A stretch of 64,000 bases of DNA. Source: Massilia sp. Se16.2.3 (GTDB taxonomy: Bacteria; Pseudomonadota; Gammaproteobacteria; Burkholderiales; Burkholderiaceae_D). Shown here piece by piece: positions 3,699 to 36,362 of the stretch (positions are counted from its first letter, which is position 1; every line of letters begins with the position of its first letter). The position numbers and the translations under genes are program-made. Where the stretch lies: contig NZ_CP050451.1 in the NCBI RefSeq assembly GCF_014171595.1, forward strand, positions 2,170,001 to 2,234,000, written 5' to 3'. The notes under the pieces were generated by a model. The model was not told the DNA's origin. It worked only from the letters and a program-made list of their open reading frames with translations, and ran no database searches.

Positions 3699-4738
3699 CT
3701 AACGCATCCCCAGCAAGGCCAGCACCCGCTCGCGGCTCACGCCCACCAGGGCCGAGGTAATCGCCAGCAGCGACTCGTAATCGTGGCTGGCGGCCGTCGC
3801 GGCGAAATCCTGGGCCGTGATGGCCGGGGCCTCCGGACTGATCTCCGGCTCGACGGCGCGCAGGCTGGCTGCGCTGAGGGCGGCGCTGGCGGCGGCTTGC
3901 GAGCGGCGCACCCGTTCGAGCGCCTGCACCACGTCGCGCAGGTTCTGGCGCAGAGCCTCGGCATTGCCCTTGTTCAGATCCTGCAACTGCAGGTCAGGCG
4001 CGACGGCTTCCGTGCCGACACGACCGCGTCCGGAAATGGCGATGCTGTCGCGCACGGCCGGCCAGTTTGCTTCGGCGGTGGAAAATTCGATACGGCCATC
4101 GCGGCCCAGGCCTGCGCGCACGTTCAGCGGTGCCAGCGTGCGGTCCAGGCGCGCAGCGATCTGTTCGGCGCTCATCTCGGGCTCGAAGCTGGCCGACAGT
4201 TGCGGGCCGCCGGCGCCGCCGATCGAGAACGACAGCGACAGGGGGCGCGGCCGCCTGCAGGCTGGCCGCGTCCAGGCCGCCGATGCGGAAACGCTGCTGT
4301 GCCGGTGCGCCGATCGAAAAGTCGAGCGCCGCGTCGACCGAGCCGCCGGCCTGGCTGGCGCGGGCGGCGAGCGTCGCGCTGAGCTGGCGTGCGCGTGCTT
4401 CGAGGTCGCGCGCGCCGCTCTTCATGCCGGCGATCCTGGCGCTCAGGGCCGCCTTGACCGATTCGAGCTGGCTGGCGACGCGATCGAGGTAGTCGCGGGC
4501 TTGCTGGGCACTGGCGACGTCGCCCTGCAGGCGGGTATCGAAATGGGGCTGGCTGCGGCGTGCGGGGGGCATGCGCGACCAGGCGTTCGGCCGCCTGGAG
4601 GGCCGCGGTTTCGGTGGCGTCAGGGACCGGCTGGGCAGGAACAGGCGCCGGCGCGGCTTGGGTTCCGATGCGGCTGCCGGTCGTCGTGGCGCTATTGAGC
4701 GCCGGGCTGGTGACGGTGGGACGAAGCGAAGTTTCCAT
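3699..4738 (-). CDS. LafW-like flagellar hook-associated/filament protein (two frameshifts in this sequence)
   Basis: Last gene of the flg operon, 3 bp after flgL, in the position of lafW in lateral (Flag-2) loci. The product is about 345 aa once two single-base insertions are undone: one in the G run near 4545 and one in the G run near 4241 (plus strand). The N-terminal 60 residues are low-complexity Ala/Pro. The middle has coiled-coil-like helices. Then comes FRIGG...LSFSIGG followed by MSAEQIAARLDRTL and GRIEFS, which resembles the flagellin/FliD 'hook-IN' module. The C-terminus is helical and ends LLGMR. A hook-filament junction or filament role is inference from position and this motif. 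Confidence 0.55.
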
Positions 4739-4741
4739 CGA

Positions 4742-5653
4742 TTACAGGGCAGAGAACAGGGACAGCGATCCGATCCGGCCATAGGCCTTGTAGGTCGACT
4801 GCAGGGCGGTCGAGTAGCCGTTGAGTTCGGTGGCAGCCACGCCCATGTCCAGTTGGCCGATGTCGGTAATCGCCATCTGGTTCGACAGGCTGACGTTGCT
4901 GTGGTTGGCCGCCAGGGTGTCGAGGATGTTCTGCTTGCCGCCGAGGACTGCGATTTTACCGGAAACCAGGTCGAGCGCGTCGTCGAAGCCGTCGAGGTTG
5001 GCCTGGAGTGTCGCGCGGGTGGCCGGGTCATTGACGTCCAGGTTGCCGCTGCCGAGCGAGGCGATCGTCGCATCCATGCGGTTGAGCAGCTGTTCGATGC
5101 CCTTCAGGTTATCGTTGGCCGCCTGGGTCAGGCCGTTGCCGACGACCACGCGCTGTTCGTTCGTATTGCCGCCAAAGGTGTAACGCGCGCCGGGCGCGGC
5201 GCTGGCATCGTAGACCATGGCCGGGGTCGAGGTCATCGTGCCCGAAAACACGTAGCGGCCTTCCTGGTCGACGGTATTCGCGCTGTAGTACAGGCTGTCG
5301 CGCAGCGCTTCGAGCGGATTGATCATCGCTTTCAGGTCGTCCGGCGTATTGCCGCCGTCGAGCGCCCAGACGATCTGGTCGCGGCCGGAAGTGATGTCGT
5401 TGACCATGTTGCCGAGGTAGCCTTCGGTCTTGGTCAGGCGAATCTTGATCGAGGCGATGTTGTCGCGGTACTGGCCGATGGCCGCTTCCTCGCGCTGCAG
5501 GCGCGACAGGCGGACGCTGTCGACCGGATCGTCCGAGGGCACGAGGATGCGCTTGCCCGTGGCCATCTGTTCGGTCAGCTTGCTGATGCGCTCCTGGTTC
5601 AGCTGGAGCGATTTGTTCATGTTCGACTGGTACTGGGCGGTGGCGATGCGCAT
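4742..5653 (-). CDS. flgL: Flagellar hook-filament junction protein FlgL (HAP3)
   Basis: Joins hook to filament together with FlgK. At 303 aa it is close to the usual size. It starts MRIATAQ, and the N-terminal helices carry the flagellin-like TGKRI..PSDDPV signature; the C-terminal helix ends in a flagellin-type heptad (LNGYSTALQSTYKAYGRI). No frameshift. The start lies 9 bp after the flgK stop, so the two are translated from one transcript. Confidence 0.95.
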   Translation of the reverse strand: MRIATAQYQSNMNKSLQLNQERISKLTEQMATGKRILVPSDDPVDSVRLSRLQREEAAIGQYRDNIASIKIRLTKTEGYLGNMVNDITSGRDQIVWALDGGNTPDDLKAMINPLEALRDSLYYSANTVDQEGRYVFSGTMTSTPAMVYDASAAPGARYTFGGNTNEQRVVVGNGLTQAANDNLKGIEQLLNRMDATIASLGSGNLDVNDPATRATLQANLDGFDDALDLVSGKIAVLGGKQNILDTLAANHSNVSLSNQMAITDIGQLDMGVAATELNGYSTALQSTYKAYGRIGSLSLFSAL

Positions 5654-5662
5654 GATGCTTCC

Positions 5663-7034
5663 TTAACCCATCATCGCCAGCGTGGCGTCGAACAGGGCGT
5701 TAGCGACCGACATGACTTTCATGTTGGCCTGGTACATGTTCTGGTATTCGACGAGGTTGACGGCCTCTTCGTCCTGGTTGACGCCGCTCGTGGTCTGCCA
5801 GTCGTCCACCGCGTGGGTACGCATGGTCTGGGCAGTCACGAGGTCGGCCTGGTTCTGCTGGCTGAGCACGCCCAGCTTGCCGACCAATTGGGTGTCCGCG
5901 TCGGAGAGCAGCACGGTGCCGAGGCCCGTCACGTTGATCGTCTGGCTGTTGATCTGCACCAGTTTCTGCAGGTTGCCGGTGTCGCCTTCGGTACCGTCGC
6001 TCGAAAACGCGAGGCCTGTGGGCTCGAGGCCGGCGGTCACTTGCAGCATGTTGGTGGTGCCAGGCGTGAACACGAACAGGGGTTTGCCCGGCGTGCCGTC
6101 CATGGCAAAGCCGGCCGCCATTTGGGTGTTGACCTTCTCGGCCAGCTGGCGCGCGACGTCGGCCACGCCTTGCTGCATCGGCCGCAGGGTGTCCTTTTCG
6201 TAGACGGTCAGGCCGCCCAGCTGGCCGCCCAAGCGGGTGGCGTCGAGCGCGAAGGTGGTCGAGGCGAACTCCAGCGTGAAGCCCCTGGTCGACGATGCCG
6301 CCGGTGGCGTGCAGCTTGCCGGCGACGCTGCCGATCACCAGCGCCTGGCCGGTTTTCAGCGAGATGTCGCGCACGCCGCCCGGCTGCTCGGACACTTCCA
6401 GCGCCACCTGGCCAGCCAGTTCGTCGATTGCCAGGTCGCGCGCGTCGATCAGGCTCGAGGTCGGCGCGCCGACGGCGTTCGCTTGCGAGATGCGCGTGTT
6501 CAGCGCGGCGATCTTGTCGATGTTGGCATTGGCCGAGTCGACGATGGCGCTGCGCTGCTGGCTGACCGATTGCAGCTGGGCGTTGAAGACGTTGTTCAGG
6601 CTATTGAAGCGCTGGGCCAGCAGGCTCGAGGAGGTAAGCACCTGCTGGCGCAGCGGGGTCGAGGTGGCGTTGTCGCCGGCAACCGCGTTGAGCGAGGCGA
6701 AGAAACCGTCGACCGCCACCGACAGGCTGGCGCTATCGTCGCCCATCACGCGCTCGAGCTGGGTCAGGTAAGGCTGGGTCTGCGAAAACTGGCCGGTCTC
6801 GGCATTCGCGCGCCACATCTGCTGGCTTTTATAACCATCGGAAAAACGGATCAGCGAGCTGACCTGCACACCATTGCCCACGGCCTTGCCGCTGGCATCG
6901 GCACCCACGGCCGACAGCATCGCCGCCTGGCGGGTGTAGCCCTTGGTCTGCAGGTTGGCGATGTTCTGGCTCGTTGCCGACAGCGCCAGCTGCGAAGCCA
7001 GCGCGCCCGACAGCGCGTTGTTCATGATGGTCAT
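5663..7034 (-). CDS. flgK: Flagellar hook-associated protein FlgK (HAP1), one frameshift
   Basis: First junction protein on the hook. The N-terminus (MNNALSGALASQLAL..SQNIANLQTKGYTRQ) is the classic rod/hook/HAP helix. The C-terminus (DEEAVNLVEYQNMYQANMKV) is the conserved axial helix. The frame breaks at a run of four C (plus strand 6283-6286); reading it as three joins both halves into about 456 aa, short for FlgK but complete at both ends. The start is at 7034, or three codons later at MNNAL. It follows flgJ after 64 bp. Confidence 0.92.
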
Positions 7035-7098: not shown

Positions 7099-7452
7099 TT
7101 AAGTGTTGCCGGGGGTATTTGTTTTCGGCACGAGCTGGCGCAGGATGGCATCGGCCACGCCGAAGGCGCGCTGGCCGGCCATCTGCTTCGAGAGGATGCC
7201 ATCGGCCATGTCCTGCATGTCCTGGTTGACGCGGTCCTTGAAGACGCTGTCCTCGTCGGCCATTTCGCGCGTGGTCGCGCGCATGTCCTTGAGCATCTGC
7301 GAAATGAAGAAGCTTTCGAATTCGACCGCGGCCTTGGTGGCTTTCGCCAGGTAGACCGGATCGGGCGCGCCCTCGGCGGCCGGGGCGACGGCCTCGGTGT
7401 TGAGCACGCCGGCGCGCGGCAGCTGCGGATTGAGCTTGTTTTCAAACTGCAT
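7099..7452 (-). CDS. flgJ: Rod-binding protein FlgJ, N-terminal domain only
   Basis: Rod-capping scaffold protein, 117 aa. Only the rod-binding domain is present (FESFFISQMLKDMR..., then QMAGQRAFGVADAILRQL). The muramidase half usual in beta/gammaproteobacterial FlgJ is missing; a separate glucosaminidase gene lies at 14336-15069 with flgMN. Its ATG overlaps the flgI stop (TGATG), so the two are translationally coupled. Confidence 0.9.
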   Translation of the reverse strand: MQFENKLNPQLPRAGVLNTEAVAPAAEGAPDPVYLAKATKAAVEFESFFISQMLKDMRATTREMADEDSVFKDRVNQDMQDMADGILSKQMAGQRAFGVADAILRQLVPKTNTPGNT

Positions 7453-8576
7453 CAGATCACCACCAGTTCGCCTTCGATGGCGCCGGCCTGGTCGAGTGCC
7501 TGCAGGATGGCCATGATGTCGTCCGGCGAAGCGCCGAGGCTGTTGACCACGTCGATGATGGTCTGCAGCTTCGCGCCCGGTGGCCACTTGAACATCTGGC
7601 CCGAACCCTGGTCCACCGACACCTGCGACTGCGGCGTGACCGCGGTCTGGCCGCGCGAGAACGGGCCCGGCTGGCTGACCTTCGCGCTTTCGGAAATCAC
7701 GACTTTCAGCGAACCATGGGTGACGGCGGCCGACTTCACGCGCAGGCCGTCGGCGATGACGACGGTGCCGGTGCGCGAGTTGAACACGACCTTCGGCACT
7801 TCCACGCCCGATTCCACCGACAGGTTCGACAGCTTGGCCACGAATGCCACGCGCGCGGTCGGGTCGCTTGGTGCCACGACCTCGACGCTGGTACCGTCGG
7901 CGGTGGTGGCGACCTGGCCAAACTTTCGGTTGATCGCTTCGACGACGTTGGTGGCCGTTTCGAAATGCGGGTGGCGCAGGCGCAGCAGCACTTGCGGGCG
8001 GGTGGCGAAATCGGTGGCGATTTCGCGTTCGATCATGGCGCCGTTCGGGACGCGGCCGGTGGTCGGGGTGTTCACCGTCACCGAGGAGCCGCTCTTGCCG
8101 GAGGCCGACAGGCCGCCGACGACCAGGTTGCCCGGGCCAGCGCATAGACTTCGTTGTCGGCCGCGCGCAGTTGCGTCAGCAGCAGGGTGCCGCCGCGCAG
8201 GCTTTTTCGCGTCGCCCAGCGAGGACACCGTGATGTCGATCGCCTGGCCGCGGCGGTAGCCCGGCGGGAACACGGCCGAGACCATGACGGCCGCGACGTT
8301 CTTGTTCTTCGCGTCTTGCCCTTCCGGCAGCTTGACGCCGAATTGCTTGAGCATGTTCAGCACCGACTGGCTGGCGAACTTCACCTGGGTCGAGTCGCCC
8401 GAGCCATTCAGGCCGACGACGAGGCCATAGCCGACCAGGGGATTCTCGCGCACGCCCTCGATACTGACCAGATTGCGCAGCGCCTGGGCGGCCTGCGCGG
8501 GCACGGCCGCGCTCAGGGCGAGCGCGGCGGCGAACATGATACGGCTGAGGAGGGCAAGACGGCGAAACTGAATCAT
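7452..8576 (-). CDS. flgI: Flagellar P-ring protein FlgI (compensated frameshift pair)
   Basis: Periplasmic P-ring subunit around the rod, 374 aa. A Sec signal peptide covers residues 1-29 (cut after AQA). The conserved start LVSIEGVRENPLVGYGLVVGLNGSGD and end DDIMAILQALDQAGAI are intact. Between about 8130 and 8205 the frame is wrong: a run of five A/T where four are expected, then one base missing at the GCCCGGG junction. The correct frame there reads SLRGGTLLLTQLRAAD. The pair restores the frame, so the stop is unaffected. Confidence 0.93.
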   Translation of the reverse strand: MIQFRRLALLSRIMFAAALALSAAVPAQAAQALRNLVSIEGVRENPLVGYGLVVGLNGSGDSTQVKFASQSVLNMLKQFGVKLPEGQDAKNKNVAAVMVSAVFPPGYRRGQAIDITVSSLGDAKKPARRHPAADATARGRQRSLCAGPGNLVVGGLSASGKSGSSVTVNTPTTGRVPNGAMIEREIATDFATRPQVLLRLRHPHFETATNVVEAINRKFGQVATTADGTSVEVVAPSDPTARVAFVAKLSNLSVESGVEVPKVVFNSRTGTVVIADGLRVKSAAVTHGSLKVVISESAKVSQPGPFSRGQTAVTPQSQVSVDQGSGQMFKWPPGAKLQTIIDVVNSLGASPDDIMAILQALDQAGAIEGELVVI

Positions 8577-8588: not shown

Positions 8589-9245
8589 TTAAAACGGCAT
8601 CAAGGGACCCGTGAAGAAGCGGGTCAACCATCCGGCGGAGTTGGCATCGGCCAGCACGCCTTTCGCCGAATACGCGATGCGGGCATTGGCCACGCGCAGC
8701 GACGACACCTGGTTCTCGGCATCGACATCGGCGGCGCGCACATAGCCCTTCAGGCGGACGAATTCCTCGCCCTGGTTCAGGGTCATGTTCTTTTCGCCGG
8801 CCACGCGCAACAGGCCGTTGGGCAGCACTTCCTGCACGATCACGGTCAGGGCGCCGGACAGGGCGTTCTGCTGGGTGCTGGTCGAGTCGCCCGAGAAGCT
8901 GCGATCAGCCGAGATGTCGACCCCGGTCTTGCCGAAGGTCTTGCCCAGCACGCCCAGCGGCGTCACGCCGACCGAGGAGCCCTTGCTGAAGCTGGTCCCG
9001 GCGCGCTTGCTGGCCTGGGTGGTCTCCTGCAGGATCACGGTGACGACGTCGCCGACGCGGTAGGCACGCGCATCCGAGGTCAGCGACAGCGCGTCGCTGC
9101 TGAACACGCCGCCGGATACGCCACGCGAAGCGGTTGGTGCGACCGGCACCGGTGCTTCGTCGACTGCCGCCACTTTCGGCGCGGTCGACGCACAACCGGC
9201 AAGCAGAAGGGCAAGGACGGTTGCCGCGATGCTCGCACCCTTCAT
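8589..9245 (-). CDS. flgH: Flagellar L-ring lipoprotein FlgH
   Basis: Outer-membrane L-ring subunit, 218 aa. It has a lipoprotein signal with lipobox LLAGC (Cys about residue 18) and the FlgH core YRVGDVVTVILQETTQASKRA, ending GWLTRFFTGPLMPF. The ATG overlaps the flgG stop (TGATG), and 12 bp separate it from flgI. Confidence 0.95.
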   Translation of the reverse strand: MKGASIAATVLALLLAGCASTAPKVAAVDEAPVPVAPTASRGVSGGVFSSDALSLTSDARAYRVGDVVTVILQETTQASKRAGTSFSKGSSVGVTPLGVLGKTFGKTGVDISADRSFSGDSTSTQQNALSGALTVIVQEVLPNGLLRVAGEKNMTLNQGEEFVRLKGYVRAADVDAENQVSSLRVANARIAYSAKGVLADANSAGWLTRFFTGPLMPF

Positions 9246-10030
9246 CAGCGCGCCGCCTGTGCCAGGTACTGCAGCATGTTGTCGGCGGCGGACAGCACCT
9301 TGGTATTCATCTCGTAGGTACGCTGGGCAGCGATCATGTCGACCATTTCTTCGACGACCTGCACGTTCGAGCCTTCGAGCGCACCCTGTTTCAGTTTGCC
9401 GAGGGCGCCATCGCCCGGACGGCCTTCGGTTGGCGCGCCGCTGGCGGCCGTTTCCGAGAACAGGTTTTCGCCGAGAGCCAGCAGGCCGGTCGGGTTGACG
9501 AAGCCGGTGAGCGTCAGCGCGCCGAGTTCAGTCGGTGCGGCCTGGCCGGGAATCGTGGCCGAGACGGTGCCGTTTTCGGCAATGGTGATCGCGGTGGCGT
9601 TGTTCGGGACGGTGATCTGCGGCACCAGCGGCAGGCCCCGGGCATTGACCAGGGTACCGTTGGCGTCGAGCTGCAGCTGGCCGGCGCGGGTGAAGGCGGC
9701 ATCGCCGTTCGGGCGGCGCACCTGCAGGAAGCCGTTGCCGGAAATGGCGACGTCGAGCTGCTGGCTGGTCGTTTGCAGGCTGCCGTTGGTGAACACCTTC
9801 TGGGTGCCGACCAGGCGCGTGCCGTTACCGAGCTGGACGCCGTTCGAGACCGTGTTGTCGGCACTCTGCGCACCCGGTTGCGTATCGACCTGGTAGTGCA
9901 GGTCTTCGAAGACGACGCGGTCGCGCTTGAAGCCGACGGTGTTGACGTTGGCCAGGTTGTTGGCGATCGCCTGCAGCTTGGCGTCTTGCGCCTGCACGCC
10001 GGTCTTGCTGATCCACATTGCTGGATTCAT
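9245..10030 (-). CDS. flgG: Distal rod protein FlgG
   Basis: Forms the distal rod that crosses the periplasm; 261 aa, the standard length. It begins MNPAMWISKTGVQAQD with the rod helix and ANNLANVNTVGFKRDR signature, and ends with the conserved VVEEMVDMIAAQRTYEMNTKVLSAADNML helix. Intact. A Shine-Dalgarno-like AGGAGAAG precedes the ATG. Confidence 0.97.
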   Translation of the reverse strand: MNPAMWISKTGVQAQDAKLQAIANNLANVNTVGFKRDRVVFEDLHYQVDTQPGAQSADNTVSNGVQLGNGTRLVGTQKVFTNGSLQTTSQQLDVAISGNGFLQVRRPNGDAAFTRAGQLQLDANGTLVNARGLPLVPQITVPNNATAITIAENGTVSATIPGQAAPTELGALTLTGFVNPTGLLALGENLFSETAASGAPTEGRPGDGALGKLKQGALEGSNVQVVEEMVDMIAAQRTYEMNTKVLSAADNMLQYLAQAAR

Positions 10031-10081: not shown

Positions 10082-10807
10082 TTAAGCGCCGATTAGACGG
10101 TTACCTACCTCGTTCATCTTGTCACTGGCCTGGAACAGCTTCATCTGCATTTCGAAACTGCGGTTCAGCGCCATCGTCGCCACCATCTCTTCGATGGCCG
10201 AGACGTTGCTGCCTTCCAGGGCGCGCGAGCGCACGGTGATGTTCGGGTCACCCTGCAATTGATCGCCACTCCGCGAGACGATCAGGCCGGCCTCGTTCTT
10301 GGTCAGTTCCGGGCCTTCGGCCGTTACCAGGCGCAGCTTGTCGATCACCTGCATCGTGGTTGCGCCTTCGCCCATCACGGAAATCGTACCGTCGGTACCG
10401 ATCTCCACGGCGGAGTGGGGCGGCAGCACGATCGGGCCGCCGTCGCCGAGCAGCGGGCGGCCCGCCACCGACAGCGCGCCGTTGGCATCGATGTCGATGG
10501 TGCCGGCGCGCGTATAGGCTTCCTGGCCGCCGAATTCGACCGCGAAGTAGCCGTTGCCATTGATCGCCACGTCGAGCGGACGGCCGGTTTCACGGATCGT
10601 GCCCGGCTTGGCCGAGATGGCGTCGGCCTGCGTTTTCGCCATGTGCACGTCATCGTAGCCGTAGCCGCCGAGCGACTGGGTCGAGACCAGTTCCAGGTTC
10701 GCGCGAAAGCCGGCCGTGTCCATATTGGCCAGGTTGTTCGCGTGGACCTGCTGGGCACGCAGCGTGTGTTCGGCGCCGGAGACGGCGGTGAAGATCAGTT
10801 TATCCAT
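10082..10807 (-). CDS. flgF: Proximal rod protein FlgF
   Basis: Rod protein between the FliE/FlgB/FlgC base and FlgG; 241 aa. Starts MDKLIFTAVSGAEHTLRAQQVHANNLANMDTAGFR and ends in the axial helix SAIEEMVATMALNRSFEMQMKLFQASDKM. Intact, and 23 bp downstream of flgE. Confidence 0.96.
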   Translation of the reverse strand: MDKLIFTAVSGAEHTLRAQQVHANNLANMDTAGFRANLELVSTQSLGGYGYDDVHMAKTQADAISAKPGTIRETGRPLDVAINGNGYFAVEFGGQEAYTRAGTIDIDANGALSVAGRPLLGDGGPIVLPPHSAVEIGTDGTISVMGEGATTMQVIDKLRLVTAEGPELTKNEAGLIVSRSGDQLQGDPNITVRSRALEGSNVSAIEEMVATMALNRSFEMQMKLFQASDKMNEVGNRLIGA

Positions 10808-10830: not shown

Positions 10831-12018
10831 TTACAGTGCCTGCATCAGCGACTGCATCATCTGGTTTTCGGTGGTGATGACTTTCGAGTTCGCCTGGTAG
10901 TTGCGCTGCGAGGTCATCAGGCCGACGAGTTCGGAGGTGATGTCGACGTTCGAGCCTTCCAGTGCGCCGGTATTCAACTTGCCCGACAGGCCTGCGCCCG
11001 GGGTGCCGTACAGCGCCAGGCCCGAAGCGGCATTCGCCTGCCAGCTCGTTTCGCTGGTGGCGGTCAGGGCGCCTTCGTTGGCGAAGGTGGCCAGGGCGAT
11101 GGTGCCGACGGTCTGCTTCTGTTCGTTGCTGTAGCGGGCGACGACCGAACCGTCACCAGCCAGCTCGACGCCGACATAGGTGCCCGAGGCATAGCCGTCG
11201 GTGCTGTTGGTCGTGGTGGTCGCTTCGCCGGCGAACTGGGTGGTGCCGGTGTAGTCGATCGTGAAGGCGATCGGGTCGGAGCCGTTGGCCGTGTTCAGGG
11301 TCAGGGTGCCGCTCTTGGCGGCGCTGGTCAGCTGGCCCTTGCCATCGAAGCTCAGGGTGCCGGCAGTCGCTGGTGCCGCGCCGTCGAAGCCGTAGTGCAC
11401 GGCCACCTGGTTGCTGCCGGCCTGCTTGACGAAGTACTGCGACACGGTGTGCTGGGTGCCGAGCGAATCGTACAGGACCGATTGCTTGACCATGTTGTAG
11501 CTCGACGGGTCGGTGCTGTCGAAGGTGGTGGTGGTCGGTGCTTTCCAGTCGGCCGACAGGTTGCCGACGAAATTCACGCCGGTCGATGCCGAGGCGGCGA
11601 TCTGGCCGGTCGGGATCTTGATGTCGCCCATGGTACCGAGGGTGCCGTTCACGGTCGGGCCATAACCCTGCACCTTGCGGCCGGCGGCGTCGACCAGGTT
11701 GCCGGCATTGTCGGCGGCGAAGATGCCGACGCGGCTGTACGAGACGGCGCCGGTGGTGTCGCGGCTGACGAAGAAGCCGCGGCCGTCGATGGCGGCGTCG
11801 AGCGAGCGGCCGGTCGATTCGACCGAGCCGTTCAGTTCGATGTTCTGGGTCAGCGAGCCGACCGAGACGCCCGTTGCCTGCTCGCCCGCATACATGGCGG
11901 CGAAGTTGGCGCGGCTGCTCTTGAAGCCGTAGGTGCTCGAGTTGGCGATGTTGTTCGAAACGGCTTCCAGCTGCTCGTTGATGGCCTGGATACCGGAGAG
12001 GGCGATATTGAAACTCAT
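10831..12018 (-). CDS. flgE: Flagellar hook protein FlgE
   Basis: Subunit of the universal-joint hook; 395 aa. The N-terminal axial helix reads SFNIALSGIQAINEQLEAVSNNIANSSTYGFK. The middle is a Gly/Ser/Thr-rich surface domain, and the C-terminal helix (VDITSELVGLMTSQRNYQANSKVITTENQMMQ) is conserved. Intact. It sits between flgD and flgF, as in most loci. Confidence 0.96.
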   Translation of the reverse strand: MSFNIALSGIQAINEQLEAVSNNIANSSTYGFKSSRANFAAMYAGEQATGVSVGSLTQNIELNGSVESTGRSLDAAIDGRGFFVSRDTTGAVSYSRVGIFAADNAGNLVDAAGRKVQGYGPTVNGTLGTMGDIKIPTGQIAASASTGVNFVGNLSADWKAPTTTTFDSTDPSSYNMVKQSVLYDSLGTQHTVSQYFVKQAGSNQVAVHYGFDGAAPATAGTLSFDGKGQLTSAAKSGTLTLNTANGSDPIAFTIDYTGTTQFAGEATTTTNSTDGYASGTYVGVELAGDGSVVARYSNEQKQTVGTIALATFANEGALTATSETSWQANAASGLALYGTPGAGLSGKLNTGALEGSNVDITSELVGLMTSQRNYQANSKVITTENQMMQSLMQAL

Positions 12019-27993: not shown

Positions 27994-28075
27994 TAAAACC
28001 CCTCTTATTTCACCTTTCTCCTCGTACAGCGCTTGAGGGATACTATGGACTCGCTCGATTCAAGATACGATCTTA

Positions 28076-28085
28076 CCGTACGGCA
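28076..28085 (+). promoter_or_regulatory. CCGTACGGCA palindrome-based element
   Basis: The palindrome CCGTACGG followed by CA lies upstream of fliM, in the same orientation relative to the gene as the copy upstream of fliC (36451-36460). Confidence 0.25.
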
Positions 28086-28134
28086 ATGCTGATTTCAAAG
28101 AGGAATATCGAGTGATCCGAAACATCCAAGCAGG

Positions 28135-29072: not shown

Positions 29073-29411
29073 ATGGACATGAATCTGAACGAGCAACTGG
29101 CTGCCGACGTCCTCCTCGATGACAACGTCGAAGCTGCCGCGCCTGTACGCAACCCGCGCCTGCCGCAAATGATGCGCCGCATCCCCGTGACGCTGACGCT
29201 GGAAGTGGGCTCGGCCCGCATCTCGCTGCAGGACCTGATGGACCTGGGCCCGGCCAGCGTGCTGCCGCTCGACTCGGTCGCTGGCGAGCCGCTGGTCCTG
29301 AAAGTGAACGGCGCCGCCATCGGCCGCGCCGAAGTGGTGGTGGCGGGCGAGCAGTACGGCCTGAAAGTGATCGACCTCGACGGCCTGAACCTGGACCTGA
29401 TCGCCCCATGA
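29073..29411 (+). CDS. fliN: Motor switch protein FliN
   Basis: 112-aa C-ring protein with a single SpoA domain: IPVTLTLEVGSARISLQDLMDLGPASVLPLDSVAGEPLVLKVNG, then IGRAEVVVAGEQYGLKVIDL. The ATG follows the fliM stop directly and the end overlaps fliP (ATGA). No fliO lies between fliN and fliP. Confidence 0.95.
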   Translation: MDMNLNEQLAADVLLDDNVEAAAPVRNPRLPQMMRRIPVTLTLEVGSARISLQDLMDLGPASVLPLDSVAGEPLVLKVNGAAIGRAEVVVAGEQYGLKVIDLDGLNLDLIAP

Positions 29412-30157
29412 CCCTGAGCCGTCGCATGACCGCAGCGGCCGGCGTCGCGGCTGCACTCCTTCTGATCTCCGTTCCCGCCAGCGCCGCCGACGTACTGGCC
29501 GGCGTCATTCCGGGCGCGAAGTCCGGTCTCTCCGTCAAATCGCAGATCCTGGTCCTCATGACCCTGCTCGGGCTCCTGCCCGTGCTCGTCATGATGATGA
29601 CCAGTTTTACGCGCTTCGTGATCGTGCTGTCCCTGCTGCGCCAGGCCCTCGGCCTGCAACAGGGCCTGCCCAGCCGCGTCATTACCGGCATCGCCCTGAT
29701 CCTCACCCTGCTGGTGATGCGTCCGATCGGCGTGCAGGTGTGGAACGAAGCCTTCGTGCCCTACGACCGCGACCAGATCGGCCTCGAGCAGGCCCTGGCA
29801 ACGGCCGAGAAGCCGCTGTCGCGCTTCATGCTGGCCCAGACCAGCAAGAGCGCGCTGGCACAGGTGGCGCACCTGGCCGGCGAAGCCCCGTCGATGAAGC
29901 CGGAAGACCGCTCCTTTGTCGTCAAGCTGGCCGCCTTCGTGCTGTCCGAACTGAAGACCGCGTTCCAGATCGGCGCGATGCTGTTCATCCCCTTCCTCAT
30001 CATCGACCTGGTGGTCTCGTCGGTGCTGATGGCAATGGGCATGATGATGCTCTCGCCCCTGGTGATCTCGCTGCCGTTCAAGCTGCTGCTGTTCGTGCTC
30101 GTCGATGGCTGGACGCTGACCGTCAACACGCTCGTGGGCTCGATCCACGGTTACTAG
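29408..30157 (+). CDS. fliP: Flagellar export gate protein FliP
   Basis: Core subunit of the FliPQR gate, 249 aa. A cleavable signal peptide (1-26, ends ASA) precedes the conserved block VLMTLLGLLPVLVMMMTSFTRFVIVLSLLRQALG and C-terminal helices ELKTAFQIGAMLFIPFLIIDLVVSSVLMAMGMMML. Intact. Confidence 0.96.
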   Translation: MTLSRRMTAAAGVAAALLLISVPASAADVLAGVIPGAKSGLSVKSQILVLMTLLGLLPVLVMMMTSFTRFVIVLSLLRQALGLQQGLPSRVITGIALILTLLVMRPIGVQVWNEAFVPYDRDQIGLEQALATAEKPLSRFMLAQTSKSALAQVAHLAGEAPSMKPEDRSFVVKLAAFVLSELKTAFQIGAMLFIPFLIIDLVVSSVLMAMGMMMLSPLVISLPFKLLLFVLVDGWTLTVNTLVGSIHGY

Positions 30158-30169: not shown

Positions 30170-30184
30170 ATGAGTCCTGCTTAA
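30170..30184 (+). other. Duplicated fliQ start forming a 4-codon mini-ORF
   Basis: ATGAGTCC occurs at 30170 and again at the fliQ start (30184). The first copy opens a mini-ORF, ATG AGT CCT GCT TAA, whose stop overlaps the fliQ ATG as TAATG. It may couple translation or be a small duplication; the two ATGs are not in the same frame. Confidence 0.4.
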
Positions 30185-30453
30185 TGAGTCCCGATATCGC
30201 AGTCGACCTGGTCGCCGAAGCCTTGCGCGTGGTGATGCTGCTGGTGCTGGTGCTGGTGGTGCCGGGCCTGCTCGTCGGCCTGCTGGTCGCACTGGTGCAG
30301 GCCGCTACCCAGATCAACGAGCAAACCCTGAGCTTCCTTCCACGCCTGCTCGTGACGCTGGTCGCGCTGATCCTGGCCGGCCACTGGATGACCGGCTACC
30401 TGATGGACTACTGCGTGTCGGTGTTCCAGCGCGCCGCCACCATCGCAAGCTAA
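30184..30453 (+). CDS. fliQ: Flagellar export gate protein FliQ
   Basis: 89-aa two-helix gate subunit. Starts MSPDIAVDLVAEALRVVMLLVLVLVVPGLLVGLLVALVQAATQINEQTLSFLPRLL, the standard FliQ profile. Lies 26 bp after fliP and 3 bp before the GTG start of fliR. Confidence 0.95.
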   Translation: MSPDIAVDLVAEALRVVMLLVLVLVVPGLLVGLLVALVQAATQINEQTLSFLPRLLVTLVALILAGHWMTGYLMDYCVSVFQRAATIAS

Positions 30454-30456: not shown

Positions 30457-31233
30457 GTGGAATTAGTCAACTACCTGCTGCCCCTGATCGGCGCGCTGTG
30501 GTGGCCGTTCTGCCGCATCATGGCGCTGCTGTCCTCGGCCCCTGCCATCGGTGAGGGCGCGGTACCGATTCCCGTGCGCGCGCTGCTGTCGATGGTGCTG
30601 GCCTTCCTGATGCTGCCCCTCACCAAAGGCATGCCGATGCCCGACCCGTTCTCGCTGCACGGCGTGGTCGCCATGTTCGAACAGGCGGTCATCGGCGGCG
30701 TGCTGGGCTTCGCCCTGCAGTTCGCCACTTCCGCCGTATCGATGCTGGGCTTCCTGGCCTCGAGCCAGATCGGCTTTTCGATGGCGCAGATGAACGACCC
30801 CGTCAACGGCCAGCAGTCCGACGTGATCTCCAGCGTGCTGTCGCTGGTGGCCATCTTTGTCTTCTTCGCCATCGACGGCCACCTGGTGCTGGCCAGCGTG
30901 CTGGGGCAGAGCTTCAAGGCCTGGCCGGTGGGGCAGGGCCTGGGGCCGCTGGTGCTGCAGACGGTGGCGCTGAACCTCGGCTGGGTGTTCGCCGCGGCGA
31001 TGCTCCTCGCCTTGCCGATCGTGTTCTCGACGATGGTCGTGCAGATCGGCATGGGCTTTCTCAACCGCGTGGCACCCTCGCTGAATCTGTTCTCGCTGGG
31101 CTTTTCGCTGGTGACCGTATTCGGCCTGATGATGCTGGTGCAGCTGGTGCGCTTCATCCCCGAACACTACATCCAGCTGACCAACGCCGTACTCGAGATG
31201 CTGCAACAACAGATGAAGGCACCCCATGGCTGA
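30457..31233 (+). CDS. fliR: Flagellar export gate protein FliR
   Basis: 258-aa membrane protein of the export gate, reading from a GTG codon. FliR features are ALWWPFCRIMALLSSAPAIGEGAVPIPVRALLSMVLAFLMLP, GVLGFALQFATSAVSMLGFLASSQIGFSMAQMNDP, and the C-terminal helix LNLFSLGFSLVTVFGLMML. The end overlaps flhB by 8 bp. Confidence 0.95.
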   Translation: MELVNYLLPLIGALWWPFCRIMALLSSAPAIGEGAVPIPVRALLSMVLAFLMLPLTKGMPMPDPFSLHGVVAMFEQAVIGGVLGFALQFATSAVSMLGFLASSQIGFSMAQMNDPVNGQQSDVISSVLSLVAIFVFFAIDGHLVLASVLGQSFKAWPVGQGLGPLVLQTVALNLGWVFAAAMLLALPIVFSTMVVQIGMGFLNRVAPSLNLFSLGFSLVTVFGLMMLVQLVRFIPEHYIQLTNAVLEMLQQQMKAPHG

Positions 31234-32365
31234 AGGCGCGGGTGGCGACAAGACAGAAAAAGCCTCGGCCCAGAAGCTCCGGAAGGCACGCGAGGAAGGC
31301 CAGGTCGTCCGTTCGAAAGACCTGTCCACCGCGATCGGGGTCCTGGTCAGTCTGAAGCTGTTCGTGCTGATGGTGCCGACCTACCTGGAATCGTTCAGAG
31401 CCCTGTTTCGCCTTGTGTTCGTCCCTTTGGGCGAGACCGGCGCGATGGAAAATGCGATGTCGGTGGTCTTCATGGCCGCGACGCTGCTGCTGGTGAAGAT
31501 GGTGCTGCCGCTGGCGGCGGTCCCGGTGGCGATCGTGATCGGCGGCCTGGTGCCGGGCGGTTGGGTCATGAGCGGCAAGAACCTGATGCCGAAAATGTCG
31601 CGCCTGAACCCGATGACGAACCTGGGCAACCTGGTCTCGCAAAAGCATGCGATCGGCTTGGCGACCTCGATCGCGAAAGCCGTGGTGCTCGGCATCGTGC
31701 TGGTGCACGTGATGCGGTCAAGCGTGTCGGGCTATGTCGAGCTGCAGCGCCTGCCCCTGGGCGACGCCATCCTGCGCGGCAGTTCCATGATGTTCGATGC
31801 GCTCATGGCGCTCGTTGCCGTGTTCGTGATCTTCGCCGTGCTCGACGTGCCGATCCAGGCCTTCCAGTTCGCGAAAAACCAGCGCATGAGCAAGCAGGAA
31901 CAGAAGGAAGAACACAAGACCAGCGAAGGCCGCCCGGAAGTGAAGCAGCGCATCCGCCAGCTGCAGCACCAGCTGGCGCGGCGCAGCGTGAACAAGACGG
32001 TGCCGACGGCCGACGTCGTGATCGTCAACCCGGAACACTATGCGGTGGCGCTGAAGTACGACACCGACCGCGCCGAAGCCCCTTATGTCGTGGCCAAGGG
32101 CGTCGACGAGATGGCGCTGTACATCAAGCGCGTCGCGGCCCAGCACAAGGTCGAGACATTGACGCTGCCGCCGCTGGCGCGCGCGATCTATAACACCAGC
32201 CAGGTGCAGCAGCAGATTCCCGCCCAGTTGTACCAGGCGGTGTCGCAGGTGCTGAACTATGTGCTGCAATTGAATGCTTTCCGTGATGGCCGGCGCCAGG
32301 CGCCCCCGCGGATCCCGACCGATGTGGCCGTGCCACACCATTTGAGCGAGGTAACACCTTCATGA
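31226..32365 (+). CDS. flhB: Export substrate-switch protein FlhB (NPEH cleavage site)
   Basis: 379 aa: an N-terminal Lys/Arg/Glu-rich segment (DKTEKASAQKLRKAREEGQVVRSKDLS), four membrane helices, then the cytoplasmic self-cleaving domain. The autocleavage motif is NPEH (Asn at residue 268) instead of the usual NPTH; the cleaved N-P bond and the His are kept. The C-tail after PLARAIYNTSQVQQQIPAQLYQAV is Pro-rich. FliK binds here to stop hook growth. flhA overlaps by ATGA. Confidence 0.95.
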   Translation: MAEGAGGDKTEKASAQKLRKAREEGQVVRSKDLSTAIGVLVSLKLFVLMVPTYLESFRALFRLVFVPLGETGAMENAMSVVFMAATLLLVKMVLPLAAVPVAIVIGGLVPGGWVMSGKNLMPKMSRLNPMTNLGNLVSQKHAIGLATSIAKAVVLGIVLVHVMRSSVSGYVELQRLPLGDAILRGSSMMFDALMALVAVFVIFAVLDVPIQAFQFAKNQRMSKQEQKEEHKTSEGRPEVKQRIRQLQHQLARRSVNKTVPTADVVIVNPEHYAVALKYDTDRAEAPYVVAKGVDEMALYIKRVAAQHKVETLTLPPLARAIYNTSQVQQQIPAQLYQAVSQVLNYVLQLNAFRDGRRQAPPRIPTDVAVPHHLSEVTPS

Positions 32366-34455
32366 ATTCGATGAACGCTTTCATCGCCGAGCTGCGCCGC
32401 CAGAAATACGCGGCGCCCGTCTTCATCCTGCTGCTGCTCGGGATGATCATGCTGCCGCTGCCGCCGGTGCTGCTCGACGTCCTGTTCACCTTCAACATCG
32501 TGCTCGCGCTGATCGTGATCACCGTCGCCGTGTCGGCCAAGCGGCCGCTCGACTTCTCGGTGTTCCCGACCGTGATCCTCGGTACCACGCTGATGCGCCT
32601 GGCGCTGAACGTGGCGTCCACGCGCGTCGTGCTGCTGCACGGGCACGAAGGCACGCACGCTGCCGGTAACGTCATCGAGTCCTTCGGTAACGTCGTCATT
32701 GGCGGTAACTTCGTCGTCGGCCTGGTGGTGTTCGTCATCCTGATGATCATCAACTTCGTCGTCGTGACCAAGGGTTCGGAACGTATCTCGGAAGTGTCGG
32801 CGCGCTTTACGCTCGACGCGCTGCCGGGCAAGCAGATGGCGATCGACGCCGACCTGAACGCGGGCCTGATCAACCAGGAAAAAGCCACCCAGCGCAGGAA
32901 GGACGTCGCTGCAGAAGCAGACTTCTACGGCGCCATGGACGGTGCCTCGAAGTTCGTGCGCGGCGACGCCATCGCTTCGATCCTCATCCTCATCATCAAC
33001 CTGATCGGCGGTATTGCCATCGGCGCGCTGATGTACGACCTGCCGCTCGGCGATGCCTTCCGCGTCTATGCGCTGCTGACCATCGGCGACGGCCTGGTCG
33101 CCCAGATCCCTGCGCTGCTGCTGTCGGCCGCGGCCGCGATTCTCGTCACCCGCATCGGCGAGGCCGGTGACCTCGACAAGCAGGTTGGTAGCCAGCTGCT
33201 GGCGCAGCCTGCGGTGCTGTTCTCGGCTGCCGGCGTGATGGTCATCCTGGCCCTGGTGCCAGGCATGCCGAAGCTGGTCTTTTTTGTCTTCGCCGCAGCC
33301 CTTGGCTATGCCGGCTGGCGCCTCTCGCAGCGCGTGGCCCCGTCCGACAATGCCGGCGTGGCCGCCATCGAAGCGGCCCTGCGCGACGAGCGCGCGCCCG
33401 ACCTCGACTGGCAGCAGCTGCCGGTGGTGCAGCCGATCTCGGTGGCCGTCGGCTACAAGCTGGTCGGCATGGTCGACAAGGCGCAGGGCGAGCAGCTCAC
33501 CAAGCGCATCAAGGGCATCCGCCAGAGCCTGTCCGAATCGATGGGCGTGCTGTTACCAGGCATCGGCGTGCGCGACGACCTGGCCCTGCGACCGGCGCAG
33601 TATTCGGTCAGCCTGTCCGGCGTGGTCGTGGCCGAAGGGGAGGTGCATCCCGAGCACCTGATGGCGATTCCGTCGCCGAACGTCTACGGCGAGATCGACG
33701 GCATTCCGGGCCTGGAACCTGCCTACGGCATGGCCGTGACCTGGATCGAACCGCAGCAGAAGGGCGAGGCGCTCGGCCTGGGCTACCAGGTGGTGGAAGT
33801 GCCGAGCGTGATCGCGACCCACTGCTCGAAAGTGATCCGCGACCACCTGCACGAACTGTTCCGCCACGAAGACGTGCCGGCGCTGATGGAGCGCCTGACC
33901 GCCCTGTCGCCGAAGCTGGCCGGTTCGCTGGAAAAGGCATTGAACCATACGCAGCTGCTGCGCGTGTTCCGCGTGCTGCTGGCCGAAGGCGTGTCGCTGA
34001 AGGACATCGTCGTCATCGGCACCACGCTGCTCGACGCGTCGGAGACGACCAAGGATCCGATCCTGCTGGCGGCCGAAGTGCGCTGCGCGCTGCGGCGCCA
34101 GATCGTCTCGAACATGTTCGGCAAGAAGAAGGACATGCCGGCCTTTAACCTGTCGGCCGAACTCGAGAACATGCTGCTAGGGTCGCTCAACCAGGCACGC
34201 CAGAGCGGCGGCGGCAAGGTGGCGCTCGATAACTACCCGATCGACCCGCAGCTGCTGTCGCAACTGCAGATCAACATGCCGGTCGCGCGCGAGCAGATGA
34301 AGCAGCAGCATACGCCGCCGCTCCTGCTGGTGCTGCCGCAGGTGCGCCCGCTGCTGGCGCGCTACGCCAAGCTGTTCGCGCCGGGCCTGTCGGTGCTGTC
34401 GTATAACGAGATTCCCGAGAACCGGGAAGTGTCGATCGTGGGGACGGTGGGCTAA
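32362..34455 (+). CDS. flhA: Flagellar export platform protein FlhA
   Basis: 697 aa, intact. An eight-helix membrane half, FHIPEP-family block (PLDFSVFPTVILGTTLMRLALNVASTR, VTKGSERISEVSARFTLDALPGKQMAIDADLNAGLI) and the cytoplasmic nonameric ring domain to the end. Drives proton-coupled export. Last gene of the fliMNPQR-flhBA run; a REP-like pair follows and no terminator hairpin with T-run is seen. Confidence 0.97.
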   Translation: MNSMNAFIAELRRQKYAAPVFILLLLGMIMLPLPPVLLDVLFTFNIVLALIVITVAVSAKRPLDFSVFPTVILGTTLMRLALNVASTRVVLLHGHEGTHAAGNVIESFGNVVIGGNFVVGLVVFVILMIINFVVVTKGSERISEVSARFTLDALPGKQMAIDADLNAGLINQEKATQRRKDVAAEADFYGAMDGASKFVRGDAIASILILIINLIGGIAIGALMYDLPLGDAFRVYALLTIGDGLVAQIPALLLSAAAAILVTRIGEAGDLDKQVGSQLLAQPAVLFSAAGVMVILALVPGMPKLVFFVFAAALGYAGWRLSQRVAPSDNAGVAAIEAALRDERAPDLDWQQLPVVQPISVAVGYKLVGMVDKAQGEQLTKRIKGIRQSLSESMGVLLPGIGVRDDLALRPAQYSVSLSGVVVAEGEVHPEHLMAIPSPNVYGEIDGIPGLEPAYGMAVTWIEPQQKGEALGLGYQVVEVPSVIATHCSKVIRDHLHELFRHEDVPALMERLTALSPKLAGSLEKALNHTQLLRVFRVLLAEGVSLKDIVVIGTTLLDASETTKDPILLAAEVRCALRRQIVSNMFGKKKDMPAFNLSAELENMLLGSLNQARQSGGGKVALDNYPIDPQLLSQLQINMPVAREQMKQQHTPPLLLVLPQVRPLLARYAKLFAPGLSVLSYNEIPENREVSIVGTVG

Positions 34456-34543: not shown

Positions 34544-35376
34544 CTACCCCTGCGCCGGCAACACCAGCGCCATCTCCGCCACCGCCCTGAACACGGGCAG
34601 CGTCAGCACATCCGCCGCCGCATCGGCTGCCACCACGGCATGCGCCGACCCCGGCGGCAATACGGCGTCGACGAAACTCCAGCGCACCACCACCAGCCCG
34701 GCACGCTCGACGGCCGCCTCGAGCGCCGGCTGGATCGCGCGCAGCCGTGCCGGGCGACCGCGCCCGGCGCCGCCATCTCGATCGCCACGCCGCCAGGCAC
34801 CGGCTCGACCTGCAGCGCCACCTGCGTGCCATCGGCCAGTTCCAGCTCCAGGCGCAATGCCGCGCGCGGACGCTTCCTGCGGCCGGACGAGCCGTCAGCC
34901 GGCTGGCGCAGCACCTGCAAATGCTGGTCGCGCGCGCTGCCAGCGTGCACCGTGAAGCGCCACGGATCGGCAGGCAATACATGGCCCTCCAGCGCACGGC
35001 CCGGTACGCGTCCGTCCTGTGCCAGCACCAGTGCGGCCGGCGGCAGCGCCGCGCGTGCGCGCAGTTCGCGGTCGACCAAACTGGCGCCGTAGTTGCCGAC
35101 CATCGAACGCCAGGCCCCGGCCAGCGTACGCCCGTCCTGCGTAAAAACTCAGCTGGCGCGACATGAAAACCTGGTCGGGACGCATTGCCGCGCCATCCGC
35201 CTGGAGCGGCACCCCGGCGGCGGGGGGACGGGCACCGACTGCGGCAAGGGCAGCTCGGCCTCGGCAGTCGCGGCGAAGACGGCGGAGCCGACCGGCGACA
35301 ACGCCGGCACCGCGCCCACCTGCAGCGATGGGGAAGACGGCGGAAGCAGCGGGACAATCGAGGGAATACTGTTCAT
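34544..35376 (-). CDS. FliK-like hypothetical protein behind flagellin (several frameshifts)
   Basis: About 277 aa after repairing three indels (near 35225, 35145 and 34755). The N-terminus (MNSIPSIVPLLPP) is Pro/Ala-rich. A middle helix MRPDQVFMSRQLSFLRQDGRTLAGAWRSMVGNYGAS is followed by a beta-rich C-terminal part (LRLELELADGTQVALQVEPVPGGVAIEM..LRAIQPALEAAVERAGLVVVRWSF) that looks like the FliK C-terminal fold. It follows fliC on the same strand but beyond a terminator, with its ATG 17 bp past that hairpin. Function unknown; a second hook-length or filament-associated factor is inference. Confidence 0.5.
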
Positions 35377-35392
35377 GAGCGATCCCAAAATG

Positions 35393-35422
35393 AAAAAGGC
35401 CAGCCGAACAAGCGGCTGGCCC
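35393..35422 (-). terminator. Rho-independent terminator of fliC
   Basis: A perfect 9-bp stem GGCCAGCCG/CGGCTGGCC with a 6-base loop is followed on the minus strand by five T, about 40 bp after the flagellin stop. Confidence 0.85.
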
Positions 35423-35462
35423 TCGAGATTCCCAACTAGAGGCTAGTTGAGGGAAGCCGTGA

Positions 35463-36362
35463 TTACTGCAGGAGCGACATGACCATCGACGACATCTGGT
35501 TGGTCTGCTTCAGCATCGCGGTACCGGCTTGCATCAGCATCTGGTTCGAGGTCATCTTCGCGCTTTCCGTTGCGAAGTCGACGTCCATGATACGGCCAGC
35601 GGCGTTCTGCGTGTTGGTGCTGATGTTCGACAGGTTGTTGTAGACGTGGTCCAGACGGTTCGAGACAGCACCGATCTTCGAGCGCAGGGCGCTGACGGAG
35701 TCGATCGAGTCCGACAGATCCTGGATCGTCAGGTTGGCGGCGGTGGCGCCGGCAGCTGCGTCGGTGCCGCTGATTTCGGTGCCGGTAGCGGATGCGCCGG
35801 CGGCGGTGCCACCTGCGAAGCGGCTCGAACCCAGCAGCAGCTTGGCGTGCACGTCGGTCAGTTCGGTGGTGAAGTTACCGCTCATCGTCTCAGCCTTGTC
35901 GGCGCCGATCTGGAAGGTGACCGATGCTTTCAGCTTGCCGGTGTCCTTGTTCAGCAGGGTGGTGCCGCCGAACTTGGTGTTCTTCATGATGTTCGACAGT
36001 TCGTCAGCCAGCGAGTCGAATTCCGATTGCATGGCGGTCTGGTCGTCCTTCGACGACGAGCCGTCGGCTGCCTGGGTGGCCAGGTCTTTCATGCGCAGCA
36101 GGATGTTGCCGGTTTCGTCGAGCGCGCCTTCGGCGGTCTGCAGCATCGAGATCGAATTCTGGGTGTTACGCATTGCGACGGCCATGCCGCTGGTCTGCGA
36201 CTTCAGGCGGGTGGCGATCTGCAGGCCGGCTGCGTCGTCCATTGCCGAGTTGATGCGGTAGCCGGTCGAGAGGCGGGTCATCGAGGTCGACAGCTTCGAC
36301 TGGGTGGTCGACAGCGAGTTTTGTGCGGACAGCGAGGCGGCGTTGGTGTGAAGGCTCAGCAT
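35463..36362 (-). CDS. fliC: Flagellin
   Basis: Filament subunit, 299 aa. The N-terminal D0/D1 (MLSLHTNAASLSAQNSL, STGYRINSAMDDAAGLQIATRLKSQ) and C-terminal D1/D0 (NLSNISTNTQNAAGRIMDVDFATESAKMTSNQMLMQAGTAMLKQTNQ) are fully conserved. The surface domain is short and Ala/Gly/Ser/Thr-rich (SRFAGGTAAGASATGTE), offering many possible O-glycosylation sites. It is a single-gene unit with its own terminator. The glycan genes at 36770-43307 start just upstream on the other strand. Confidence 0.97.
   Translation of the reverse strand: MLSLHTNAASLSAQNSLSTTQSKLSTSMTRLSTGYRINSAMDDAAGLQIATRLKSQTSGMAVAMRNTQNSISMLQTAEGALDETGNILLRMKDLATQAADGSSSKDDQTAMQSEFDSLADELSNIMKNTKFGGTTLLNKDTGKLKASVTFQIGADKAETMSGNFTTELTDVHAKLLLGSSRFAGGTAAGASATGTEISGTDAAAGATAANLTIQDLSDSIDSVSALRSKIGAVSNRLDHVYNNLSNISTNTQNAAGRIMDVDFATESAKMTSNQMLMQAGTAMLKQTNQMSSMVMSLLQ

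Follow-up and report, generated by a model that had tools for sequence, protein, structure and literature searches.

We report that a 64,000-nucleotide stretch of Massilia sp. Se16.2.3 (the window: G000:C1:2170001-2234000, in a 5.35 Mb genome on a single contig) carries one lateral-type flagellar block, which extends over about 33 kb of this Massilia-group genome (window positions 3699-36362) and comprises 39 gene positions. The initial annotation had called the block a beta-proteobacterial set of lateral (laf) type, and this assignment holds on three counts: an FlhA tree, scores compared gene by gene, and the presence of a second, polar-type locus. We envision, with good confidence, that the block encodes a complete second, lateral flagellum beside the polar-type one of this soil-type bacterium, that it is switched by a regulator other than LafK and that it likely serves motility on surfaces or at high viscosity. 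The set would have been inherited within Massilia near typA and would derive, earlier on, from a gamma-proteobacterial lateral lineage.

The window FlhA, whose closest named matches are from Massilia species at no more than 95% identity, is 58% identical to LfhA from the intact Flag-2 locus of E. coli strain E1624. Its identity to the primary FlhA of its own genome and to E. coli FlhA is 43-44%, and the latter two share 62-63%. Flag-2 proteins outscore the K-12 primary proteins in 27 of the 27 window genes matched (28 compared; FliM matched neither), with 315 versus 194 bits for FliF, 540 versus 414 for FliI and 320 versus 129 for FliG. In the genome's own polar region, the primary protein scores higher in 26 of 28 genes, that is, in all but motA and flagellin (equal). 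In an FlhA tree of 106 rows (quick IQ-TREE run, Shimodaira-Hasegawa-like approximate likelihood ratio support alone, midpoint root, two long end branches among the non-lateral rows), the 35 lateral rows, the window's among them, are split from the 71 others with a support of 100. Within them, the window groups with Massilia inside a 25-row beta-type lateral clade (support 100), which joins three Enterobacterales Flag-2 rows at 88, then the Pseudomonas laterals at 88, and then Vibrio. The tree covers FlhA; FliF, FliI and FliG agree with its lateral grouping by bit score. Both the primary FlhA of the genome itself and that of E. coli are placed among the beta primaries, and a grouping of enteric primary flagella with those of beta-proteobacteria has been reported (PMC8042155). 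If the midpoint root is correct, beta laterals descend from a gamma lateral lineage, a derivation that the same source gives with reference to Liu and Ochman 2007 (PMC8042155).

Might the block instead be a diverged or duplicated primary beta set that resembles laterals in gene order alone? Several NCBIfam lateral-type models do remain under their cut-offs here, as such a set would have it, but this idea is already contradicted by the FlhA split at 100, by the uniform gene scores and by the separate primary-type set elsewhere in the genome, and we give it practically no chance. The initial annotation had asked for a second flagellar locus as a check. One exists and is of the polar type, so that the outcome named there as refuting the lateral reading did not occur. 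The second FlhA lies at C1:4986057-4988036, and in the surrounding 100 kb there are matches to fliE, fliFGHIJ, fliK to fliR including fliO, flgB to flgI, flgK, flgL, fliA, fliD, fliS, flagellin and flhBA. The matching region of the relative G269 contains FlhF (TIGR03499 above cut-off), FliA and MotC/MotD, which points to a polar-type system. By position, the four Flagellin_N genes of the genome supply one flagellin and one FlgL to each system. Two relatives hold a third match of the FlhA/SctV type (G056:C1:1190330-1192273, 814 bits; G761:C1:955829-957793, 654 bits), which would belong either to an injectisome or to yet another flagellar set.

The gene content, order, strands and coordinates of the initial annotation were borne out by profile searches, tblastn and reading of open reading frames (ORFs). 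On the minus strand, fliEFGHIJ-fliD-fliS-(fliT position)-fliK-fliL-sigma28-motA-motB-flgM-flgN-glucosaminidase is followed by flgBCDEFGHIJKL and a lafW-like gene; flgA and fliMNPQR-flhB-flhA lie on the plus strand, and the flagellin gene adjoins flhA on the minus strand. The placement of flgM-flgN-glucosaminidase after motB and of flagellin beside flhA had been singled out as peculiarities of the layout, and both are real. Overlooked had been about nine broken reading frames, the absence of lafK and lafZ, the lafW-like gene and an extra gene between flhA and flagellin. Expectation values (E) at the locus reach down to 1e-231 and the core genes found keep an identical order in seven of seven relatives, so that chance is not an issue.

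Distribution of the set and control without LafK

How widely is this set distributed? An FlhA match at 1e-60 is present in 208 of 300 Burkholderiales genomes; among the matches listed, sorted by E-value, five genomes, with our own counted, have an FlhA 67-100% identical to the window's, and the others one of at most 48%. Across 369 genomes of the class, two (again with our own) reach at least 72%, and the others 48-52% among the matches listed at E 1e-195. At the level of the family, lateral FlhA (76-100%) occurs in 26 of 145 genomes, spread over 5 of 44 genera, and in the same genus it occurs in 6 of the 8 genomes listed. The top 120 matches to the FlhA of G572, a genome outside Burkholderiales with Steroidobacteraceae as its nearest named kin by FlhA, bring in Undibacterium, Ramlibacter, Ideonella, Herbaspirillum, Paracidovorax, Rugamonas, Steroidobacter and Sphingomonas sp. 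A1. Strain A1 (P0166) is listed under Alphaproteobacteria in NCBI taxonomy, yet its lateral FlhA stands among beta and Steroidobacteraceae rows. The typA gene lies near the lateral locus in all four same-genus loci (window included) and was found at none of four lateral loci outside the genus within the 40 kb examined.

The beta loci share a conspicuous loss. Whereas lafK separates fliM from fliE in all nine gamma lateral loci in which this region is covered, it is absent from all seven named beta lateral loci, and tblastn with LafK gave no match in the window or in 40 kb stretches of seven relatives. The best LafK-like protein of our genome (42%, 224 bits) scores below the LafK of three gamma genomes (309-519 bits), and intermediate proteins of 257-277 bits occur in G572, in G027 and in the genome of L101. 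Thus, all beta lateral loci checked, and one that is probably from Steroidobacteraceae, are without lafK and have kept the core genes. Searches for lafZ by tblastn likewise returned no match in the window or in 40 kb of the seven relatives, although the protein is poorly conserved and a diverged copy could escape. The Pseudomonas and Stutzerimonas lateral loci L096, L097, L098, L099, L103 and L107 have lafK and form a distinct FlhA clade.

Several other features are common to the clade. A lafW-like family member, at 24% and 53 bits against E. coli, is encoded in the window and in seven of seven relatives; the window copy (3699..4738, minus strand) is a frame-broken hook-associated gene with a tblastn match to E. 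coli LafW at 4023-4259 (32%, E 6e-5), and a relative's ORF aligns to 3702-4542 in two frames. The separate glucosaminidase gene (14336..15069, minus strand, frame broken) is likewise present in the window and all seven relatives and has no match in E. coli Flag-2; a relative's orthologue (PF01832, E 2.3e-31) aligns at 14348-15069. The features that set the window locus apart, namely the lack of lafK and the separate glucosaminidase, are thus common to its clade.

Between flhA and flagellin lies a gene of uncertain frame, for which the matched stretch is 34753..35376 (minus strand; 51% to the aligned orthologue of a relative). Genes of this family (285-366 residues) occur near flagellin in seven of nine family loci (window, G269, G298, G706, L104, L108 and L132), the match being weak in G572; none was found in the examined stretches of G056 and G761. 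Of 30 family members, 15 touch the Pfam model Flg_hook (PF02120), with a best E of 2.3e-4. The AlphaFold model has a mean predicted local distance difference test score of 64, and the top two Foldseek matches, neither of them significant, are the switch domains of PscP and FliK. Together, these data give moderate support to a second FliK-C-like protein, that is, one akin to type III secretion substrate specificity switch (T3S4) proteins.

How might the early operons be switched on? A palindrome, TTACC-N4-GGCAA, lies in the gap between fliE and fliM (28073..28086, plus strand) and is a candidate regulator site, with a TATAAT-like box downstream on the fliM side (by eye). It is exact in eight of nine Massilia-family stretches (window, G269, G298, G056, G706, G761, L104 and L108) and has one mismatch in the ninth (L132), although these stretches share kinship and are not independent. 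Neither an exact nor a one-mismatch copy was found in six of six other stretches that lack LafK, and among ten gamma stretches none had it exactly and one had it with one mismatch. A further candidate site, TTTCCGTACGGCA, is located 5' of the flagellin gene (36451..36463, minus strand). Of the four genome-wide copies of the motif TTWCCGTACGGCA, two lie in the fliE/fliM gap and the gap upstream of flagellin. Since the looser pattern described below is not enriched, a replacement activator is a lead and not a result. Alternatively, the host's own regulator may stand in for LafK, because FlhC is present in six of six family genomes tested (in ours at C1:4303818); FlhC was not found in G027 and is below cut-off in G572. 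Host FlhDC may thus replace LafK, as has been suggested for FlaK in Plesiomonas (PMC11242183). The loci that lack lafK turn the LafK-independent activation of lateral flagella into a testable question in soil bacteria, and the loss bears on why Burkholderia dolosa and strain A1 have not been found to make side flagella.

Further variation was seen along the lateral loci: L078 (G706) has a tandem of three lateral-type flagellin genes, each encoding 291 residues, at 16403-19453 (joined coordinates 36403-39453). In L105 (Ralstonia sp. ASV6), flagellin is upstream of fliM and the flg genes are downstream of flhA. In L109 (Pantoea coffeiphila), a shortened flhA at 10001-11707 abuts lafU, reminiscent of the remnant that a deletion has left in E. 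coli K-12.

Proposed working of the system and rival readings

We envision a scenario whereby the genes that lie on one strand from fliE through to the glucosaminidase would provide the basal body, the export chaperones, a dedicated sigma28 with its FlgM, and a dedicated stator. With lafK lost, the early operons would need another regulator, which may be host FlhDC or a protein that binds the palindrome in the fliE/fliM gap, and the lateral sigma28 would then drive the flagellin gene. The two usual parts of FlgJ would be split between genes, with the glucosaminidase as the wall-cutting part. The lateral motor would take no input from phosphorylated CheY: the CheY-binding motif, which we take to be LSQxExDALL, is missing at the N-terminus of lateral FliM in the window (fliM, frame broken, 28200..29072, plus strand; relative's orthologue PF01052), in seven relatives and in E. 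coli LfiM, and the genome's own primary FliM has it, so that a CheY-independent motor is, on this indirect evidence, likely. A methyl-accepting chemotaxis protein is nevertheless encoded at window 45068-46900 (plus strand), some 9 kb away from the block. The flagellum would most likely serve, on the cell side, motility on surfaces or at high viscosity.

A number of observations weigh against this proposal. Expression and side flagella are predicted for the Massilia strain, and its studied relatives call for caution. With an E. coli LafA query, no clear flagellin was found in the 40 kb examined of G056, G572 and G761 (three of seven relatives). The looser pattern TTWCCN4GGCA is not enriched genome-wide (46 matches versus 42 for a reversed control), and a sigma54 scan gave next to nothing even in LafK-positive gamma controls and is hence uninformative. 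If the roughly nine broken frames were real, the system would be dead. Elsewhere, B. dolosa shows no lateral flagella by transmission electron microscopy and deletion of its lafA raised the number of polar flagella, and for the lateral flagella proposed in B. thailandensis, intracellular swimming rather than swarming is described (PMC5773237).

Are the broken frames true mutations in a decaying locus? About 9 of the 39 lateral gene positions have a broken frame in this assembly (five by two-frame matches, in addition to fliF, to flgI and fliM, and, by eye, to fliK), and queries from four relatives revealed frame changes in four to six window genes, compared with none or one between relatives. 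Yet the genome's polar region breaks at the same rate. Compared with G269, the lateral stretch with its typA neighbour (30.3 kb) shows frame changes in 5 of 36 genes and 27 odd-length gaps, and the own polar FlhA region (35.7 kb) shows frame changes in 5 of 34 genes and 29 such gaps. Between G269 and G298 there are no frame changes in either region, and odd gaps number two (lateral) and none (polar). Across these comparisons, some of the odd gaps are artefacts of aligning sequences about 75% identical. Short gaps moreover favour homopolymer runs of at least three (15 of 38 versus a background of 14%). Frequent odd-length coding indels relative to G269 extend over C1:4945000-5024999, the own polar region, just as in the lateral locus, and a gene for a tetratricopeptide repeat (TPR) protein outside the lateral locus also looks broken by eye. 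This suggests assembly error across the genome, with indels that seem to have gone uncorrected, rather than decay. We do not call the locus dead because the polar region has an equal break rate and the gaps are biased to homopolymers, and we regard a system that died by decay in this strain as very improbable.

A more substantial alternative is that the lateral-type set builds no side flagella; it would instead contribute to the polar flagellum or modulate it, in the manner reported for Sphingomonas sp. A1. Going by paper titles, the two gene sets of strain A1 reportedly form a single polar flagellum, and its lateral-typed flagellin is said to form a polar and not a lateral flagellum. Its LfhA is 73% identical to the window's, versus 58% for E. 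coli LfhA, and belongs to the same 25-row clade; loss of lafK, moreover, would remove independent control. The flagellins of A1 are described as assembling into one heteromeric flagellum (PMC13015449), and the B. dolosa findings, no lateral flagella and polar flagella altered by the lafA deletion, point the same way (PMC5773237). However, each set of our genome has its own hook, rod, export apparatus, sigma28 and flagellin, and a shared organelle needs no such duplication. We therefore consider this alternative unlikely, and retain a complete lateral flagellum as the probable product of the locus. A bolder, branch-wide version is possible but tentative: the whole beta lateral branch may have lost LafK and the Massilia family may have been rewired to an activator that binds TTACC-N4-GGCAA, perhaps with CCGTACGGCA at flagellin; the second T3S4 (FliK-C-like) protein could time filament export, and the set might be subordinate to the polar organelle or have merged with it, in which case it would be no independent engine of swarming.

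Gene content and setting of the locus

The genes of the block are given here in window coordinates, on the minus strand unless a plus sign is shown. At the flg end lie flgL (4742..5653; TIGR02550 above cut-off) and flgK (5666..7034), in which the frame is broken near 6300 (two frames; first part at 170.5 of 170.75 bits for TIGR02492). They are followed by the rod-binding part of flgJ, with 7123..7335 as the matched stretch (37% to E. coli Flag-2 FlgJ by tblastn), and by flgI (7452..8576; NF003676 above cut-off), which has a local out-of-frame patch with paired 1-base gaps. The genes flgH (8589..9245; NF001304), flgG (9245..10030; TIGR02488), flgF (10082..10807; NF009280) and flgC (12727..13131; TIGR01395) all score above cut-off. 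For flgE (10831..12018) and flgB (13150..13515), the best models, NF005286 and NF009328, remain under cut-off and TIGR03506 and TIGR01396, respectively, are above it; flgD (12036..12716) has NF007198 as its best model, under cut-off. Divergent from flgB, flgA (13542..14318, +; start uncertain) matches Flag-2 FlgA by tblastn at 13692-14294 (30%).

Beyond the glucosaminidase gene, flgN (15059..15487) is supported by the aligned PF05130 orthologue of a relative and by tblastn, and flgM, for the anti-sigma28 factor, by PF04316 above cut-off (15505..15825). The stator genes are motB/lafU (15828..16787; best NCBIfam model NF005273 LafU, under cut-off) and motA/lafT (16791..17702; TIGR03818 above cut-off). 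The lateral sigma28 gene fliA/lafS (17742..18503) has TIGR02479 above cut-off and NF009091 as best model, under cut-off. Then come fliL (18496..18981; aligned PF03748 orthologue of a relative), fliK (18989..20164; tblastn match to the C-terminal part of Flag-2 FliK at 19066-19404, frame apparently broken), fliS (20471..20860; TIGR00208 above cut-off) and fliD (20871..22235; NF005955 best, under cut-off). The ORF between fliK and fliS (20161..20478) is assigned to fliT (lafD) by position only; it has no Pfam match, and a similar ORF exists in G298. With this qualification for fliT, the block has its own sigma28, FlgM, stator, flagellin and export chaperones, as initially proposed.

Further along, fliJ (22260..22721) rests on a relative's PF02050 orthologue and on tblastn (29%), and fliI (22750..24062; two frames, broken near 23976) has TIGR01026 above cut-off and NF005535 as best model, under cut-off. 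For fliH (24021..24969, frame broken) tblastn gives 35%; fliG (24744..25766) is under cut-off for TIGR00207 and 46% identical to the Flag-2 protein by tblastn; fliF (25765..27476; TIGR00206 above cut-off) is broken towards its 3' end, with two high-scoring segment pairs in two frames; and fliE (27505..27852) is 44% identical to Flag-2 FliE by tblastn. On the plus strand, fliM is followed by fliN (29073..29411, +; tblastn 49%), fliP (29408..30157, +; TIGR01103 above cut-off), fliQ (30184..30450, +; tblastn 59%, aligned), fliR (30457..31233, +; TIGR01400 above cut-off), flhB (31226..32365, +; 333 of 349 bits for TIGR00328) and flhA/lfhA (32362..34455, +; 771 of 772.1 bits for TIGR01398, and the FlhA tree). 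The lateral flagellin gene lafA (35463..36362) has LafA, NF038071, as its best NCBIfam model (346 of 365 bits).

Some absences noted initially were also confirmed. With fliN, fliP and fliQ lying end to end, no FliO was detected in the window by tblastn with the K-12 protein (58 bits in the own polar region), although FliO is poorly conserved and a diverged copy could escape. The K-12 FlhC, FlhD and CheA/B/R/W/Y/Z proteins had no tblastn match in the window; FlhF and FlhG were not among the window ORFs scanned, and no sequence search was aimed at them there. To the left, the block is flanked by an ABC transporter and by typA (TIGR01394), of which the window edge leaves a fragment. Beside the lateral flagellin, window 36770-44634 encodes a TPR-repeat protein, a methyltransferase and glycosyltransferases (Pfam), and by these contents looks like a flagellin-glycosylation island.

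Comparison with known systems

The name Flag-2-like, given by the initial annotation, fits the core genes and fails in the strict sense, because lafK and lafZ, two of the three published marker genes (lafK, lafW and lafZ; PMC6993521), were not found. Likenesses to E. coli Flag-2 (E1624, L007) comprise the core genes, the divergent operons headed by fliM and fliE, lafW and the order fliD-fliS-(fliT)-fliK-fliL-sigma28-motA-motB. In contrast to Flag-2, the window has the fliD to motB stretch directly next to fliJ and, behind motB, flgM-flgN with a separate glucosaminidase gene; it also has flagellin by flhA and the extra FliK-C-like gene. The published three-cluster layout (lfhAB..J, lfgNMA-BCDEFGHIJKL and lafWZABCDEFSTU; PMC6993521) is not that of the window locus. 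The Vibrio and Pseudomonas laterals belong to the same lateral clade of the FlhA tree, but the loci examined carry lafK between fliM and fliE. FliO is reported to be missing often from lateral sets (PMC12248157).

The novelty implied initially was overstated, because the locus belongs to a beta lateral group that is already in print, with Sphingomonas sp. A1 as a further example. Lateral flagellin is described in B. dolosa, with homologues in Duganella, Janthinobacterium, Roseateles and Chromobacterium among others, so that the locus is not new in kind (PMC5773237). B. dolosa AU0158 and other beta-proteobacteria resemble our genome in having the lateral flagellin type beside a polar set, and the B. 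dolosa lateral set is described as lacking lateral-specific FliO, FlhF, FlhG, FlhC and FlhD (PMC5773237). By description (B. dolosa is not among the tree rows), it differs in that it occupies three regions, is without FliL and FliT and has lafA next to fliM, whereas the window has one 33 kb locus with fliL and with lafA by flhA; LafK has no occurrence in the main text of that report (PMC5773237). A 2024 paper reports lafK for all lateral clusters with the exception of Plesiomonas (PMC11242183). The Plesiomonas cluster, compared by its description, is thus like ours without LafK, and FlaK is suggested there as the stand-in (PMC11242183). Among the matches listed in the open-licence literature searched, we found no description of a LafK-less beta lateral variant; the locus is thus of a known kind within the beta group, in a form without description in that literature.

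Judged by FlhA, none of the studied systems found comes closer than the lateral-typed set of Sphingomonas sp. A1. The likeness rests on FlhA and on paper titles: strain A1, too, is said to hold two flagellar gene sets, and it would differ from the system that we propose in that its sets reportedly help to form one polar flagellum.

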